From NCBI GenBank assembly GCA_016183065.1, contig JACPFF010000019.1:62001-126000 (forward strand): a stretch of DNA of 64,000 nt, given 5' to 3'. Source of the DNA: Deltaproteobacteria bacterium (GTDB taxonomy: Bacteria > UBA10199 > GCA-002796325 > JACPFF01). Within the stretch, counting starts at the first letter, position 1, and every line of letters starts with the position of its first letter. Made by a program: the position numbers and the translations under genes. Shown here piece after piece: positions 7,402-24,104 of the stretch. The notes beneath the pieces are model-generated. The model saw only the letters and a program-made list of their open reading frames with translations, was not told the origin of the DNA and ran no database searches.

Positions 7402-7690
7402 GGGCTCACGTCGCCCCCTCCAACGGCAAAGCCGCTGGAGCCTCCCCCTCTCGCGCGCGGTGCGCGCTGGGGGACTTCCTCGTCCACCCGCTTCGCGGGT
7501 CCCCGGACTCGGTCGTCGCCACTGCCCCCTCCAGCGGCAAAGCCGGGTCAAGGCCCAGCTGTGCTGGGCCGCGAAGCACAGTCGAAGACTGTGCGGAGTG
7601 TGATGGAGCCTCCCCCTCTCGCGCGCGGTGCGCGCTGGGGAACGTCTCCCGCGGGCGACGTGAGCCCCTCCAATAGAAGACGTGAGCTCC
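7402..7690. repeat. GC-rich dispersed repeat, copy 1 (fills the hemW-hrcA gap)
   Basis: This non-coding stretch is made of small hairpins: GCGCGCGGTGCGCGC occurs twice (near 7450 and 7620), as do CCCGCTTCGCGGG and GGCCCAGCTGTGCTGGGCC. Reverse-complemented, its core (GACGACCGAGTCCGGGGACC and a CCCGCGAAGCGGG hairpin) matches the elements at 16220-16350 and 18515-18722. The segment CCTCCCCCTCTCGCGCGC appears twice inside this copy, so it looks like an internally duplicated or nested element. No convincing gene is seen here. Confidence 0.85.
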
Positions 7691-16214: not shown

Positions 16215-16352
16215 TTACAGCCGTAGGGCCCCACGGCCCAGCCGCACCGCGGCGCTCAAGGGGGACGACCGAGGCCGGGGACCCAGCGCAGCGGGTGGAC
16301 GAGGAAGAAGTACCCGGAGGCGGAGCCGGAGGGTACGTGAGCCCCTACAATC
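16215..16352. repeat. GC-rich dispersed repeat, copy 2
   Basis: Shares GACGACCGAGGCCGGGGACC, the GTGGACGAGGAAG stretch, and the final ACCCGGAGGCGGAGCCGG / GGGTACGTGAGCCCCT with copy 3 at 18515-18722. The opposite orientation is seen in copy 1 at 7402-7690. The element ends next to the 3' end of the neighbouring gene, as in the other copies. Confidence 0.8.
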
Positions 16353-16854
16353 GTGGGGTGATCAATCTATGCCAGAATCGGAGCAGATGCTCAAAGAACG
16401 ACGGCATAGGGGAGACGTCAATGGTGATCTCTTGGGCGAGGGAGAGGTTCGAGGGGAGGTGATCTCTCCCCGGCGTCAGGGAGGGAGTCCCGGATTCGTC
16501 GCGCACAAAGAATCGTAACTGGCCGGCGTGCGGTTCTTTGAACGAAATCGTGCGCGAATAGCGGCCATCGCCCGCGACCTTATCGCCCAGTGTCCCATCG
16601 TCCACGAGCGTCCAGCGGTGCTCGATCACCTTGTCCTGCAGACGATATTGATACAGTGCGAGCGATGGGGGGCGGTCGCGGGTTGTGGCCACACGCGCGG
16701 TAAACACGATCATTTGATCCTGCCACCGGTAGAGAATCGATGGCGTGGCATCCACGGAGAGAATGGCCTTTGGGTTCACCGCCATTGCGGCATGGGGGGC
16801 ACCGTGGAGACTGAAGAGGAGAGAGGCCACCATGGCAGAGAGACGGCAGTTCAT
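16345..16854 (-). CDS. Exported protein with a choice-of-anchor X-like domain
   Basis: A 169-residue exported protein. The N-terminus MNCRLSAMVASLLFSLHGAP with cleavage near AMA fits a signal peptide. The body is beta-rich; DDGTLGDKVAGDGRYSRTI matches the DGTxGDxxAGDGxYS pattern of choice-of-anchor X and similar extracellular Ig-like modules. The start at 16854 is favoured because its ATG overlaps the TGA of the aldehyde dehydrogenase gene (ATGA), implying coupled translation. The function is not known. Confidence 0.72.
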   Translation of the reverse strand: MNCRLSAMVASLLFSLHGAPHAAMAVNPKAILSVDATPSILYRWQDQMIVFTARVATTRDRPPSLALYQYRLQDKVIEHRWTLVDDGTLGDKVAGDGRYSRTISFKEPHAGQLRFFVRDESGTPSLTPGRDHLPSNLSLAQEITIDVSPMPSFFEHLLRFWHRLITPRL

Positions 16855-18518: not shown

Positions 18519-18722
18519 GGGGGCCGGGAACCCAGCGAAGCTGGGTTCCCGGCCGTGGAGCCACGGGCTCACGCCCCAGCGCGCACCGCGCGCGCGAGGG
18601 GGGGCCCAACGGGCTTTGCCCGTTGGGGGGTCAGTGCGACGACCGAGTCCGGGGACCCGCGAAGCGGGTGGACGAGGAAGTACCCGGAGGCGGAGCCGGA
18701 GGGTACGTGAGCCCCTCAAATA
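18515..18722. repeat. GC-rich dispersed repeat, copy 3
   Basis: The longest clean copy: a hairpin GGGAACCCAGCG / GCTGGGTTCCC, then CCCCAGCGCGCACCGCGCGC, a CCCAACGGG / CCCGTTGGG hairpin, GACGACCGAGTCCGGGGACC, CCCGCGAAGCGGG, and ACCCGGAGGCGGAGCCGG. It matches copy 1 in reverse complement and copy 2 directly. It lies between the small membrane protein gene and the 3' end of cydB, which it just reaches. Confidence 0.85.
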
Positions 18723-19726
18723 GTATATCGATGACTTTTAAAGAGATGGAAAAGATACCAGAGGGACGGCAACAGAAGGAGCATCCCCACGGTCAGTCCG
18801 ATGATCATGAGCCAGAGGACATTCGCCGGTGAGGCTGCATTGTAGATCGTGAGGCCGGGAGCAATGAGGTAGGGATATTGTGCGGCTCCCCATCCGACAA
18901 TCACACTGATGACCGCCAGAATGGCCGTGGCCGTGGCGAGCGTCGTCCGGCAACGCCATAGGGCCAACAGTGACGCGGCACCACTGGCCATCGAAAGAGC
19001 GACCAACGGCCAGGAACGTGTCAGAAATGCCGTCCACATATGTGGAACCTCGGTGTAGATCAGCACGAGGCCGGTCATGGCCAAGAGACCCATCCAGATC
19101 CCGGTCGTCAATGCCCGCTGCTGCCAGAGGTGCAGCAGCGATGTGCGATGGGCCATTGCGGCCTCGCGCGTGAGATAGACCGCGGCAAGATACGCGCAGA
19201 CGCCGACGAAAAAGAAGGCCGAAAAAATGGCGAGAGGTGAGAGCCACGTGGTGAGATAATTCCCGTGAAAGTCCCCGCGCTCGTCAATAGCGAGCGTTGC
19301 GGACATCCCGGCTCCAAATGCTGCACCGAGAAAAAATGGGGCCGCTGCAGAGGCCAGGGCAAAGACCGCGCCCCAAAATGCCTGCTGGCGTACGCCACCC
19401 ACGCCATTGATGTGAAAGGCGAATCCCACACCGCGAAAGAGAATGCCGGCAAGGGCCAAGAGGAGTGGGAGCCAGAGGGCCCGACAGAGTCCCGCGAAGA
19501 CCGGAGGAAAAGCGGTCCAGAGGAGGATGAGGACAAAAATGAGCCACACGTGATTGGCCTCCCAGACGGGACCGATGGCGCCAAAGAGAAACCGCCGTTC
19601 GTCATCGGGGGACTGGAAGGCACTGTTGAGTTCCCAGATGCCGGCGCCGAAATCGGCACCGCCCAACAGGACGTAGAGCACGGCGCCAATGGCGAGGATT
19701 CCAAAGACAATCAGTTCAGGCGGCAT
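18716..19726 (-). CDS. cydB: Cytochrome bd-type quinol oxidase subunit II
   Basis: Membrane subunit II of the high-affinity bd terminal oxidase, 336 residues with about eight or nine hydrophobic helices. The N-terminus (LIVFGILAIGAVLYVLLGGADFGAGIWEL) is the standard CydB signature, and FGAIGPVWEANHVWLIF follows. A ribosome site (AGGAG) precedes the ATG at 19726, which lies inside the 3' end of cydA (11-nt overlap). The end falls in the edge of a dispersed repeat. Confidence 0.95.
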   Translation of the reverse strand: MPPELIVFGILAIGAVLYVLLGGADFGAGIWELNSAFQSPDDERRFLFGAIGPVWEANHVWLIFVLILLWTAFPPVFAGLCRALWLPLLLALAGILFRGVGFAFHINGVGGVRQQAFWGAVFALASAAAPFFLGAAFGAGMSATLAIDERGDFHGNYLTTWLSPLAIFSAFFFVGVCAYLAAVYLTREAAMAHRTSLLHLWQQRALTTGIWMGLLAMTGLVLIYTEVPHMWTAFLTRSWPLVALSMASGAASLLALWRCRTTLATATAILAVISVIVGWGAAQYPYLIAPGLTIYNAASPANVLWLMIIGLTVGMLLLLPSLWYLFHLFKSHRYTI

Positions 19727-21047
19727 GACTAGTCTCCTGAGCGCCGCGGTGCGGCTGGGCCACGTGCCGGAGTGCCCATATGGTGCAGAGGGATAATCCC
19801 GCATAAATGGCGCACGTGGTCCAAAAAAGTGGTACGATGCCGGGAGCGTCAGTCACGGCATCGGCGGTGCGCATGATGCCATAGACGATCCACGGCTGTC
19901 GGCCGACTTCCGTGACGATCCATCCGGTTTCGATGCCGACAAACCCGGCGATCCCCGACAGAATGATGCCAAGATAAAAGAGGCGACACGTTGGCCATGT
20001 ACGCCGGCGCCACCAATGCCAGGTGCTCCACAGGGTCATCAGGAGCATCAGGGTACCGCTGGCCACCATGATCTGAAAGGCATAATGCACCACAGCCACC
20101 GGCGGATGGAGTTCTGGGGGAAAGGCATTCAAGCCCTGCACTGTGGCCGCACGATCGCCATAGGCGAGCCAAGAGAGCATGCCCGGAACTTCAATGGCAT
20201 AGCGGGTTGCGCCAGCGACTGTGTCTGGGATACCGCCAAGGCGAAGTGGCGCGCCCATTTCCGTGACAAACTGGCCCTCCATGGCCGCCAATTTGATCGG
20301 TTGTCGCGCGGCCACACTTTTTGCGGCCCAATCACCGACCACAAATTGGATCGGCGTGGCCACCATGCCAACGACCAGCGCAATCCCCATCCCCGTGCGC
20401 ACATAACGGGTACGCAGCCCGCGCAAGAATGCGGTGGCATAGACCGCAGCAACCCCGAAACCGCTGGCCATGTACGCCGCAACGATCATGTGCGCGGTCT
20501 GCGGACCGGTGGCCGGGTTGAGCATGGCGGCGATCGGATCTGGATGGAATGCCGCACCCCCGATCCATTCGAATCCCTGGGGGGCATTCATCCAGGCATT
20601 GGCCGTGACCACAAACCAGGCCGAGGCAAAGCCGGCCACGGCAATGGGGATCGCGGTCATGCCATGGACTTTTGGTGTCAGTCGATCCCACGAGTAGAGA
20701 TAGATCCCCGTAAAAATCGCCTCGAGAAAAAATGCAAAGGCCTCGAGCGTGAATGGGAGGCCAATGACCGAGCCAAACGTCCCCATAAAACCCGGCCATA
20801 ACAATCCGAGTTCAAAGGCGAGCACGGTGCCCGAAACGGCCCCCACGGCAAAGAGCATGGCAAAGGCCTTGGCCCACTGTTTGGCGAGCTGTCGCCATAC
20901 GAGCTCGCCGGTCGTGGCATACCGCCACTCGGCAATGACCAGGAGCAATGGGAGCCCGATCCCAAAACAGGCAAAGACAATATGGAACCCGAGCGTGATC
21001 GCCATCTGCCAGCGGGCAATGAGGAGCGACGAAAGGGCAAGGAACAT
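19716..21047 (-). CDS. cydA: Cytochrome bd-type quinol oxidase subunit I
   Basis: Catalytic subunit of the bd oxidase, which oxidises quinol and reduces O2 to water without pumping protons. 443 residues. Diagnostic stretches: SSLLIARWQMAITLGFHIVFACFGIGLPLLL (haem ligand region), the quinol-oxidising loop region, and GRQPWIVYGIMRTADAV. The Q-loop looks short, as in the cyanide-insensitive (CIO) subgroup; that subgroup assignment is by eye. A GAGGGG ribosome site precedes the ATG. It lies downstream of the CBS-protein and cytochrome c genes on the same strand. Confidence 0.95.
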   Translation of the reverse strand: MFLALSSLLIARWQMAITLGFHIVFACFGIGLPLLLVIAEWRYATTGELVWRQLAKQWAKAFAMLFAVGAVSGTVLAFELGLLWPGFMGTFGSVIGLPFTLEAFAFFLEAIFTGIYLYSWDRLTPKVHGMTAIPIAVAGFASAWFVVTANAWMNAPQGFEWIGGAAFHPDPIAAMLNPATGPQTAHMIVAAYMASGFGVAAVYATAFLRGLRTRYVRTGMGIALVVGMVATPIQFVVGDWAAKSVAARQPIKLAAMEGQFVTEMGAPLRLGGIPDTVAGATRYAIEVPGMLSWLAYGDRAATVQGLNAFPPELHPPVAVVHYAFQIMVASGTLMLLMTLWSTWHWWRRRTWPTCRLFYLGIILSGIAGFVGIETGWIVTEVGRQPWIVYGIMRTADAVTDAPGIVPLFWTTCAIYAGLSLCTIWALRHVAQPHRGAQETSHAA

Positions 21048-21067
21048 GGGAAACCCCTCTCCCGGGC

Positions 21068-21108
21068 GTCATTCCCGCGCTCGCGGGAATCCGACGACCA
21101 TCCAGGGA
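21068..21108. repeat. REP-like palindrome between the CBS gene and cydA
   Basis: Contains the palindrome ATTCCCGCG-CT-CGCGGGAAT (21071-21090) within GTCATTCCCGCG...GGGAATCC, a repeat type common in many proteobacterial intergenic regions. It sits in the 65-nt space inside the putative operon and may modulate mRNA stability of cydA. Confidence 0.75.
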
Positions 21109-21112
21109 TCAT

Positions 21113-21544
21113 TTATGAGGCGATATAATTCTTGAGCATCGTGACGTCAAAGTGACACTCGGAAATACTTTCGCCCATCAGATCGCGCATCGACACCATG
21201 CCCAGCGGTTTGCCGTCTTTGACAATGGGGAGATGCCGGCAATTGGCCTCGCGCATCTTGGCAAGTCCTGTTTGGTAGGTGTCATCGGGATTGCAGACCA
21301 TGATCTTCCGCGTCATCACTTCCCCCACGGTCAGATCACACAGATTGCACCGCGTGGCCACGCCTTTTCGCACAATGTCGCGTTCGGAAACAATGCCGTG
21401 GAGGGTGCCTTTTTTATCGACCACCATGAGGGCGCCGATGTCATGCTCGAACATCATCTGCGCCGCCTCTTGCACCGTCAGTGTCTCGCTGACGGCATAG
21501 ATCTTTTTTGTGCCATGAATCTCGCTGACTGTGCGCATGGTCAT
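21113..21544 (-). CDS. CBS-domain protein
   Basis: A 143-residue protein made of a single CBS pair: YAVSETLTVQEAAQMMFEHDIGALMVVDKKGTLHGIVSERDIV and MVCNPDDTYQTGLAKMREANCRHLPIVKDGKPLGMVSMRDLM. Such stand-alone pairs bind adenosyl ligands and act as sensors. A strong ribosome site (AAGGAGG) is present. It lies between the multihaem cytochrome and cydAB genes with short gaps, so a regulatory role in that respiratory unit is suggested by position only. Confidence 0.92.
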   Translation of the reverse strand: MTMRTVSEIHGTKKIYAVSETLTVQEAAQMMFEHDIGALMVVDKKGTLHGIVSERDIVRKGVATRCNLCDLTVGEVMTRKIMVCNPDDTYQTGLAKMREANCRHLPIVKDGKPLGMVSMRDLMGESISECHFDVTMLKNYIAS

Positions 21545-21591
21545 GGGAACCTCCTTACGCCACTGCTGTATCGCATCGGGTGTCGAGTCGT

Positions 21592-23943
21592 CTAGCGCAA
21601 CGTCGCATTCGGGTAGTCGGCCGAAAAACCATTGCCCCCGTTGAGTTGGCTGATCGAGGCGTAGGTCTTTTGCAACACCTGGATGGCAAAGGCGGCATTG
21701 TGCACGCCGAGGCTGCCATCTTTTGAAATGACGTTGTGATTATAGACGGCCCGCCGGACATCGATAGTGCTGGCGTTCATCTTGGTCTGATTCGAGAAGC
21801 TGAGATGTCCGACGGTAATGACGCCATCGGCATCCGCAGTGGTTCCACCGGAAATATTGGTCGAATCCGTGGAGAGGATTTTGGTCGAAAGGGCCAGGAG
21901 GAGGCCTTTGATCTCGTCCTGAATGCCTTCCACACTCCCATCGCCGTCATAATCGGCGCGGGCCGTGCGGTTGAAGGTTGTCAGTCCCGGATGACAGGCC
22001 GTGCAGGCAGAGAGAAATTGGGTGCCGCCATTCGCGAGTCTCCAGGTATGTCCGCCAACAAGACGATAGCCGGTCTCCTCGGCGGTTGGGGTCGTCCCCA
22101 TATGGCATGTCACACATTTGTTGTTCTCATCCGATTGGGTGACGTCGCCCGTTCCACGCTTCAGCGTGAAGTAGGAACTCGTGTGGAAGGAATTTTCGGT
22201 GAGGGTGACATTGTATGCACTATCCGAAAATGCCGTGACGACACCAACACCCTCCAGGACAAAGGCCTGTGGATTGCCATGGACCTGGCGGAAATATTGT
22301 GTTGCGACCTGGTCGACGGTCTCGCACACGGCGTCAGCCGTGCCATCGCCATTGGTATCGCAATCCTCCTCCCCCTCCACATAGAACCCATCATGACAGG
22401 TATAACAGACGGCAGCGGCGCCGGCATCGACTTGGGTCCCCGCGTCATCTTTCAACGTGACCACTCCTTTCAGGCGGAGTTGCGTCGAGTCATTCCCGCT
22501 GATCGCGGTGGAGCCGCTGACCGTATCGCCGGCCTGGCTGTGGGGATCGTGACAGGCGACACAGGTGACGAGGAAGTCGTGCGTCTCCTGTGCCGTGACC
22601 GTGGCGCCCGCGGCGTGTTGGATGAAACCTCCGGTCGAATGACAGCGCGCGCAGGCCGCACCCCACCATGAGGAGAGTTGATAACGCCCGGCTGTGGTGA
22701 CACCGGTCGAATTGTGTGCGGAAATTTTCCATTCGGCTTCCTGAGGATGACACTTGCCGCAGACGCCGGCATTCCAGGTCTGGTAGGCGATCCGGGAGTC
22801 GATCGTGATCCCCATATGGGCCTTCCCGGGTCCATGACAGTTTTCACACTGGATATTCGTGAGCGGCGTGAGTGTCGGATTGTTCTCGGTAAATGCCGGC
22901 CAGGTAGTGCCGGTCGACGGGAAGGCATATCCTGCTTCGTCGACGAGATCATCAAATCCTGCATTGGTCGCCGCGCTCTCGGTATTGAATCCCACGGTGT
23001 GGCACTCCCAGCAATACGGCTCCGGCGCCTTTGCAGCGTACGAACCGATCGCCTGTTCAAACTGCACGGCATGACCGGTCTCCTCCCATGTCAATTCATT
23101 ATCGACATGGCAGTTCCCGCATTGACCGATCGAGGAGTCCGCGGATGCGTCGGCAATAGTTCCCACGCCAACATAATTCGCGGCATTGATGGTCAATGTG
23201 CCGCTTTGTCCGCTCGAGGGCGAGACATAGGCCACGGTATACGTACCGGCGATATCGGGTACAAAAGACGGAATCTGGCGGGCAGAGGTGGTGGTACTGC
23301 TATCGGTGAATGTTGCCGTAGAGGTACTCGGTTGTGTCAATGTCCACGACCAATCTGTGACCGTGGAGCTCGTGGTATTCGTATTCGCCTTCAGCGACGG
23401 GCCGGAGAGATAGACCTTCTCTCCCACGCCGACATTGGGGATCCCGCTACTCGTCTTGACTTCGGCGCCGTTGTCGAACAGGTGTACTGTATAGGTCCCG
23501 ACGTCTCCGTTGCCGTCGGCATCGGTGACGGTCAACCGAAATTCGAGCTGGGCGTCGTTGCGCGAGATGCCGAGCACCTGCCAGCGATACTCGTCGCTGG
23601 CGTGGAGGATGGCGGTCATGGCCGGGATGTCGAAGATGAGGGTGTCACCCGATCTGCCCGAGGTGATGGTGACCGGTACGCCGGAAATCTGTTCCCAGGC
23701 GTAACTGGCGACCGGTGCACCTTCGACCGTTGCACTCGTCGCACCAGAAATACCGACACCCGTATCGCCAAAGTCGGCATAATAGGCCGTCCCGCCCCGA
23801 TAGGAGAAGGCGGTCAGTCCATCAGCGGCCGTGATCGTTGCAGTAGGTGTGGTCACGGTCGTCGAACCGGTATTGCTGGATCCGCAGGCCGCGAACATGA
23901 TCGCTATGATGAAAGACGTGAGGCAGGAGAGAGACGATCTCAT
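21592..23943 (-). CDS. Nine-haem c-type cytochrome lipoprotein
   Basis: A 783-residue exported lipoprotein with a lipobox (IAIMFAACGSS). The first 270 residues are Ig/PKD-like beta domains (YAWEQISGVPVTITSGRSGDTL; WSWTLTQPSTSTATF). From about residue 275 to 650 there are nine CxxCH haem sites: CGNCH, CWECH, CENCH, CGKCH, CARCH, CVACH, CYTCH, CVTCH and CTACH. The C-terminal tail resembles cytochromes that report on a haem-pocket helix (VYNHNVISKDGSLGVHNAAFA). The start at 23943 gives a proper lipoprotein signal; the frame is open upstream. Likely a periplasmic or outer-surface electron carrier; partners may be the bd oxidase next door (inference). Confidence 0.93.
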   Translation of the reverse strand: MRSSLSCLTSFIIAIMFAACGSSNTGSTTVTTPTATITAADGLTAFSYRGGTAYYADFGDTGVGISGATSATVEGAPVASYAWEQISGVPVTITSGRSGDTLIFDIPAMTAILHASDEYRWQVLGISRNDAQLEFRLTVTDADGNGDVGTYTVHLFDNGAEVKTSSGIPNVGVGEKVYLSGPSLKANTNTTSSTVTDWSWTLTQPSTSTATFTDSSTTTSARQIPSFVPDIAGTYTVAYVSPSSGQSGTLTINAANYVGVGTIADASADSSIGQCGNCHVDNELTWEETGHAVQFEQAIGSYAAKAPEPYCWECHTVGFNTESAATNAGFDDLVDEAGYAFPSTGTTWPAFTENNPTLTPLTNIQCENCHGPGKAHMGITIDSRIAYQTWNAGVCGKCHPQEAEWKISAHNSTGVTTAGRYQLSSWWGAACARCHSTGGFIQHAAGATVTAQETHDFLVTCVACHDPHSQAGDTVSGSTAISGNDSTQLRLKGVVTLKDDAGTQVDAGAAAVCYTCHDGFYVEGEEDCDTNGDGTADAVCETVDQVATQYFRQVHGNPQAFVLEGVGVVTAFSDSAYNVTLTENSFHTSSYFTLKRGTGDVTQSDENNKCVTCHMGTTPTAEETGYRLVGGHTWRLANGGTQFLSACTACHPGLTTFNRTARADYDGDGSVEGIQDEIKGLLLALSTKILSTDSTNISGGTTADADGVITVGHLSFSNQTKMNASTIDVRRAVYNHNVISKDGSLGVHNAAFAIQVLQKTYASISQLNGGNGFSADYPNATLR

Positions 23944-24104
23944 GGGTGACCTCGGATGCGGATGACAATTTGTGAAGAAATCCCGGCGAGTATCGTACTC
24001 CGATCCCGTGACCTGCCCCATGATAAACATCATATGCCCGCAGGTCTTCAGGATTGTGATATCCGCGCTTCCCTGGTAGTCTCTGTGGTGCACCAGGACT
24101 CCAT
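23944..24104. other. Divergent intergenic region between the cytochrome and phoB genes
   Basis: 161 bp that must hold promoters for both directions. A TTGTGATATCC stretch near 24053 resembles half of the Pho-box unit seen before pstS, but a full box is not evident. An AGGA ribosome site precedes phoB. Confidence 0.5.

Follow-up and report, generated by a model that had tools for sequence, protein, structure and literature searches.

A nine-haem lipoprotein cytochrome of predicted OcwA-type fold beside cydAB in a deltaproteobacterial genome, and conduit-like gene clusters around its homologues

The four genes and the predicted fold of the cytochrome

We analysed a 64,000-nucleotide stretch of DNA (the window; bases 62001-126000 of the 169-kb contig JACPFF010000019.1) from the draft genome of a Deltaproteobacteria bacterium (GCA_016183065.1; 1.97 Mb, completeness 88.8%), in which a multihaem cytochrome gene lies next to genes for a cytochrome bd quinol oxidase. 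Four genes occupy the minus strand between positions 18716 and 23943: one for a nine-haem cytochrome lipoprotein of 783 residues (21592-23943, with an ATG start at 23943), identified from its open reading frame, Pfam match, motif count and predicted model; one for a stand-alone protein of 143 residues with two CBS domains (21113-21544; Pfam CBS, E 4e-29); cydA, encoding subunit I of the oxidase (19716-21047, 443 residues; Pfam CydA, E 1e-134); and cydB, encoding subunit II (18716-19726, 336 residues; Pfam CydB, E 4e-59). A preliminary description of the locus had given these genes the correct strand and coordinates, and its spacing was likewise confirmed, with 47 nt between the cytochrome and CBS genes (21545-21591), 65 nt between the CBS gene and cydA (21048-21112), and an overlap of 11 nt between cydA and cydB.

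The cytochrome possesses nine CXXCH motifs (residues 275, 311, 366, 395, 431, 461, 513, 610 and 647), compared with an average of 0.015 in shuffled versions of the same protein, and a lipobox, FAAC, was recognised by eye with its cysteine at residue 20 (Cys20). Together these two features bear out the earlier identification of a nine-haem lipoprotein cytochrome. A match to the Pfam family Cytochrome_C7 (E 5e-13) was also found. In a full-length AlphaFold2 model built from a 57-row alignment (mean predicted local distance difference test score, pLDDT, 88; predicted template modelling score, pTM, 0.87), the signal peptide and lipobox are followed by a predicted domain at residues ~30-157 matching PKD domains (best Z 9.8 over 92 residues), a second at ~158-256 matching immunoglobulin-like (Ig-like) domains, and the haem domain at ~262-783; the Ig/PKD-like character previously ascribed to the N-terminal region thus agrees with the predicted model.

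Because the Ig-like and PKD domains swamped the fold search with the whole protein, the haem domain was modelled separately (522 residues; pLDDT 82.5, pTM 0.86), as the preliminary description had proposed. The nonahaem cytochrome OcwA (PDB 6i5b) was the only Foldseek match to this model at E<=0.001. In a VIA-align comparison, the undecahaem cytochrome 6qvm (Z 14.8 over 340 residues) was tied with OcwA (Z 14.7; 332 residues, root-mean-square deviation 4.0 Å, 26% identity), followed by NrfA and octahaem nitrite reductases (Z ~11-13) and MccA (Z 7.6), after which values dropped below 4; Z values up to ~13 can be common among helical models in this method. A profile search of the cytochrome against PDB agrees with the structure comparison and so provides independent backing for the OcwA match (E 2.4e-11), with six aligned stretches that include a C-terminal helix bearing the motif S-x-G-V-H-N. 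In its predicted structure, the haem domain is of the OcwA/OmhA/NrfA fold with a C-terminal helix bundle.

The nine haem motifs follow the order of those in OcwA, haem 2 having been matched by eye through order and spacing. Outside the motifs, histidines 291, 376, 410, 468, 555, 587, 632 and 748 are each conserved in at least 55 of the 57 homologues, H555, which lies between motifs 7 and 8, being kept in 56. Conservation of these eight additional histidines points to bis-His coordination of as many as eight haems; the remaining haem, probably haem 2, would then have no conserved partner. In an octahaem sister clade both cysteines of haem 2 have been lost and its histidine is kept (H315, in 57 of 57). 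Phylogenetic reconstruction groups the window cytochrome with relatives from the same order, G003 and G004 (Shimodaira-Hasegawa-like approximate likelihood ratio, SH-aLRT, 99). As separate observations, the octahaem form is present as two tandem, divergent copies in another genome of the class (G010, L052:8568-14827), and the PDB chain 6r2q_A is named cystathionine beta-synthase, yet its aligned stretch is a multihaem cytochrome, such that the entry is probably mislabelled.

Conduit-like gene clusters around cytochrome homologues

Among 46 genomes sampled from the class, the cytochrome was detected in 10 at E<=1e-30, including the window's own genome. In each of the nine others a small multihaem cytochrome gene lies upstream of the cytochrome homologue, and in eight of these nine a gene for a barrel-like protein, whose barrel nature we infer, is present on the same contig. 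Two main arrangements were found. In G003, G004 and G006 a barrel-like protein of ~440 residues and a 4-haem protein are encoded ahead of the cytochrome homologue, and in G008, G010, G026, G028 and G043 another barrel-like family occurs with an 8-9-haem protein ahead of the homologue. In the remaining genome, G001, a 9-haem protein adjoins the homologue, whereas the gene for the barrel is on a different contig, at its end. Three of the nine clusters are cut by contig ends; the homologue of G028 is split across two contig ends and that of G006 runs off its contig. The composition of these clusters is suggestive of a porin-cytochrome conduit. The cluster of G004 continues with genes encoding one tetrahaem, one 4Fe-4S and one NrfD protein, and could plausibly form a chain from quinol to the outside. 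Weaker matches to the cytochrome in G041, G044, G051 and G052 have other gene contexts. Also observed in G001, beside the second barrel-like family, were genes resembling those for ccm-type cytochrome c maturation, recognised by eye (L218:606-8616).

A wider scan of contigs yielded at least 479 relatives of the cytochrome, the best 80 of which were used as loci; four of the 80 are contigs of class genomes already counted, and four without a usable open reading frame (L167, L199, L205 and L206) lie outside the alignment. These 80 loci derive from Chloroflexi, KSB1, Verrucomicrobia and other records, one of them labelled Thaumarchaeota. In one of five homologues scanned against NCBIfam, a KSB1 protein (L151:9860-12595), the sequence ends in a type IX secretion system (T9SS) type A sorting domain (E 1e-10), which lends support to a location at the cell surface.

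Gene order, transcription and partners at the window locus

Comparison of neighbours in related genomes revealed no conserved linkage, one of the two findings, together with separate promoters, that the preliminary description had named as refuting its reading. Neither cydAB nor the CBS gene was found near the cytochrome in any of the nine other class genomes; cydA, cydB and the CBS gene had no match at E<=1e-4 in the 80 loci of the wider scan, the best of at least 479 relatives, which supply 3.4 to 22 kb of DNA each and are short in some cases; cyd linkage was likewise missing from 14 kin loci from 13 genomes. The converse survey gave the same result, with neither the cytochrome nor the CBS gene around cydA matches at any of 11 class loci (in 10 of which cydA matched at 1e-5). 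By these sequence comparisons, the cytochrome-CBS-cydAB neighbourhood is peculiar to the window's genome. A literature search found no paper combining cydAB, a CBS domain, a multiheme cytochrome and an operon.

The local sequence is compatible with a transcription unit. The 47-nt gap carries a Shine-Dalgarno sequence (AAGGAGG) for the CBS gene and no listed terminator-like hairpin. Neither gap on the minus strand contains a strong intrinsic terminator; a single weak terminator-like site in the CBS/cydA gap (21063-21048; six pairs, three of them G-C) abuts the cydA start, and nine such sites were counted overall against 4.5 in shuffles. No promoter-like site was listed in the gaps on the minus strand, and the two on the plus strand compare with 2.6 in shuffles. 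Co-transcription of the four genes is therefore possible, and the probable operon of the preliminary description retains its codirectional genes, short gaps, Shine-Dalgarno sequence and freedom from strong terminators, but not a conserved gene order. The CBS/cydA gap also holds a perfect inverted repeat, ATTCCCGC-4nt-GCGGGAAT (21071-21090), with 8-bp arms, which begins 23 nt before cydA, has no T-run after it and folds no better than shuffles (z -1.0); this palindrome is a possible hairpin, or could represent a separate control site or operator. A dispersed repeat between the CBS gene and cydA was considered and rejected, the exact inverted repeat occurring once in the 1.97-Mb genome.

On its 5' side the cytochrome gene is separated by an intergenic region (23944-24104) from divergently oriented genes for a PhoB-type regulator and a PhoR-type kinase and pst genes. 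An FNR-like core (TGAT-N4-ATCA) lies in this region at 24021-24032, ~80 nt before the cytochrome gene begins; such cores occur in the window about as often as chance predicts (2 against 1.55). The only Crp/Fnr-family regulator found in the genome (L220:973-1743) possesses clustered N-terminal cysteines. Beyond the 3' end of cydB a GC-rich, repeat-like stretch precedes an aldehyde dehydrogenase gene, which is bracketed by a 54-nt direct repeat (91%; 16301-16354 and 18671-18724), the second copy overlapping the end of cydB; similar GC-rich palindromic stretches occur near 7436 and 7604. The third-codon-position GC content of the four genes (0.68-0.70) matches that of the surrounding genes measured (0.64-0.74), indicating no compositional break at the locus.

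The CBS protein may, by its family, be a sensor of adenosyl ligands. Its relatives are generic; in the one same-family genome, G001, the homologue is in two pieces (44% and 60%) and adjoins a gene recognised by eye as phosphomannomutase-like. Matches to cydA were found in 15 of 59 relatives searched, the closest (60-62%) in four genomes from one family of the class. CydA aligns over its full length with its closest solved chains, the bd menaquinol oxidase chain 9r2g and the Bd-type chain 5doq, relative to which its GRQPW motif and its His and Met positions, sites that we take to have functional roles, are kept. Since this quinol-oxidase signature is retained, CydA should take quinol directly and implies no cytochrome c donor, and for the same reason we do not expect electrons to pass directly from the cytochrome to the oxidase. 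The electron path proposed earlier survives in part: genes for a probable extracellular-electron cytochrome, a CBS protein and a bd oxidase do lie side by side, but functional coupling among them is unsupported.

Conduit partners were also sought in the window's genome. The 64-kb window holds no second multihaem open reading frame, and the barrel profiles A1 and A5 had no match on contig C24; on these searches a barrel and small cytochrome are absent from the window locus. The second barrel family (A5) was not found in the genome, which is included in surveys where the barrel profile A1 matched 22 and the small-cytochrome profile A2 matched 26 of 60 genomes. Contig C27 does carry a cluster (L129:5333-12887) encoding a 16-haem lipoprotein, a barrel-like protein, a 7-haem protein, a 2-haem lipoprotein of 114 residues and a 15-haem lipoprotein, which looks like a second, distinct and complete conduit. 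Given this cluster, the organism probably performs extracellular electron transfer.

Proposed function, rival explanations and known systems

Taken together, we consider it probable, if well short of certain, that the cytochrome acts as a terminal reductase at the cell surface, that the locus lacks its conduit partners, and that in this lineage its gene came to lie next to cydAB. It would be an OcwA/OmhA-type lipoprotein held at the outer membrane, presumably facing outward, with its two Ig-like domains serving as a spacer or docking arm and its nine-haem wire passing electrons to an outside acceptor such as a mineral, shuttle or oxyanion. In relatives it would form the outer piece of a conduit with the barrel-like protein and small multihaem cytochrome, for which, in one genome, the tetrahaem, Fe-S and NrfD proteins could draw quinol electrons. 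The window cytochrome may instead receive electrons through the separate C27 conduit, as an extra outlet. As the oxidase draws on the inner-membrane quinol pool, oxidase and cytochrome would be alternative sinks for quinol electrons rather than parts of a single wire; should the four genes share a transcript, the benefit might be joint expression at low oxygen, with the CBS protein perhaps sensing adenylate state. More tentatively, and with doubts that we judge to outweigh the case for it, the clusters could represent a trans-outer-membrane conduit that evolved separately from Mtr/Omc in an uncultured class of diderms, in which a nonahaem or octahaem lipoprotein of OcwA/NrfA fold with Ig-like arms is served by a channel from families that match nothing in Pfam or PDB, its outer subunit having moved to cydAB in one branch for joint expression of surface and oxygen reduction.

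Several results count against assigning the cytochrome to the surface end of such a conduit. Profile searches of the barrel-like proteins against Pfam and PDB gave nothing convincing, and a simple alternation test was no more than suggestive, with z values of 1.1 to 3.5 for them and 2.3 for the cytochrome itself. As the genome is incomplete, the cognate barrel could have been missed, and no linkage supports service of the window cytochrome by the C27 conduit. No HH dipeptide occurs anywhere in the cytochrome to provide the His-His pockets of OcwA, and its substrate chemistry may therefore differ. Finally, residues 273-442 match PF22113 (MtrC/MtrF domains II/IV) with 46.4 bits against a cut-off of 30. 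This last match would fit descent from surface decahaems of the MtrC/OmcA type with loss of a haem, an origin we regard as most improbable, given that the haem-domain model matches OcwA and NrfA, the cytochrome has no OmcA/MtrC NCBIfam match, and OcwA is described as unrelated to MtrC in the available text of PMC6703420; MtrC is also not among the VIA-align rows, an absence that is not decisive.

Among the other rivals, a functional, oxygen-responsive respiratory operon, in which the surface reductase and a high-affinity quinol oxidase are co-expressed and tuned by the CBS protein, enabling the cell to use either oxygen or an outside acceptor in turn, would account for the codirectional arrangement, short gaps and cydA/cydB overlap, the single weak terminator-like site, and the pairing of one Crp/Fnr-family regulator bearing N-terminal cysteines with an FNR-like core before the cytochrome. 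We find it rather unlikely, since linkage is missing from the nine class genomes, the best 80 of at least 479 relatives and the 11 cydA loci, the FNR-like core is at chance frequency, and the genome-unique palindrome between the CBS gene and cydA could be a control site of its own. Unlikely too is that the cytochrome is a surface enzyme of the NrfA/octahaem type acting on a soluble substrate (nitrite, hydroxylamine, sulfite or similar) and not a mineral or electrode reductase: the matches to NrfA and octahaem nitrite reductases (Z ~13) favour this, OcwA itself also reduces oxyanions, and H555 appears from its position to lie where OcwA has one of its His-His pairs, but the cytochrome has neither a CXXCK motif nor a His-His pocket, its eight additional histidines could ligate eight of the nine haems, so that no more than one would be open, and its relatives have a conduit-like context. 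That the neighbourhood is an assembly error of the metagenome bin, joining unrelated stretches, seems very unlikely; although the order is known from one assembly only, the contig spans 169 kb, GC and third-position GC are uniform over the cytochrome, CBS, cyd and pst genes, and no long direct repeat of a kind that could promote a false join is listed at either gap. The proposed surface terminal reductase thus remains the reading that we prefer.

Relative to characterised cytochrome bd quinol oxidases, CydAB has both subunits at full length and differs only in its upstream neighbours; cydAB genes are described as ordinary in Desulfuromonas and Geobacter, where they are tied to trace oxygen, in the available parts of PMC8235581 and PMC2996986. 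As a neighbour of cydAB alone, the cytochrome would be a local curiosity of one genome. The main lead lies outside the window coordinates, in an OcwA-fold cytochrome as the putative outer piece of a porin-type conduit. Compared with the MtrC/OmcA surface decahaems it has nine haems rather than ten. With NrfA, the octahaem nitrite reductases and MccA it shares a fold, the likeness being one of predicted structure, but it is a lipoprotein. Undecahaem 6qvm, which we take to be OmhA of Carboxydothermus ferrireducens, a surface cytochrome of Fe(III) reduction, has the same fold but eleven haems and a monoderm host.

With OcwA of Thermincola potens the cytochrome shares nine CXXCH haems in order, the predicted haem-domain fold, the S-x-G-V-H-N helix bundle and a proposed role as surface terminal reductase; identity is 16-26% in structural alignments, and the lipoprotein anchor, PKD and Ig-like N-terminal domains, missing His-His pockets and conduit-like neighbours in relatives set it apart. 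Both OcwA and OmhA are known from Gram-positive bacteria, where they act as reductases at the cell surface and need no porin. The accessible text of PMC6703420 describes OcwA as a nonahaem fold related to NrfA, c554 and MccA, with two open haems bearing distal His-His motifs, and that of PMC10376724 relates OcwA and OmhA to octahaem sulfur-compound reductases; in the accessible portions of PMC11475568 and PMC7399161 no mention of OcwA was found. Like porin-cytochrome conduits (Pcc/Mtr), the clusters in relatives combine genes for an outer multihaem lipoprotein with those for a small multihaem cytochrome and a protein resembling a barrel, but they differ in the predicted OcwA/NrfA fold of the outer cytochrome and in barrel-like families lacking convincing Pfam or PDB matches, and the window locus differs further in having neither barrel nor small cytochrome. 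An OcwA fold in porin-type clusters of diderms would bring together two distinct histories of extracellular electron transfer, and would tie nitrite-reductase-like proteins to outer-membrane wires.

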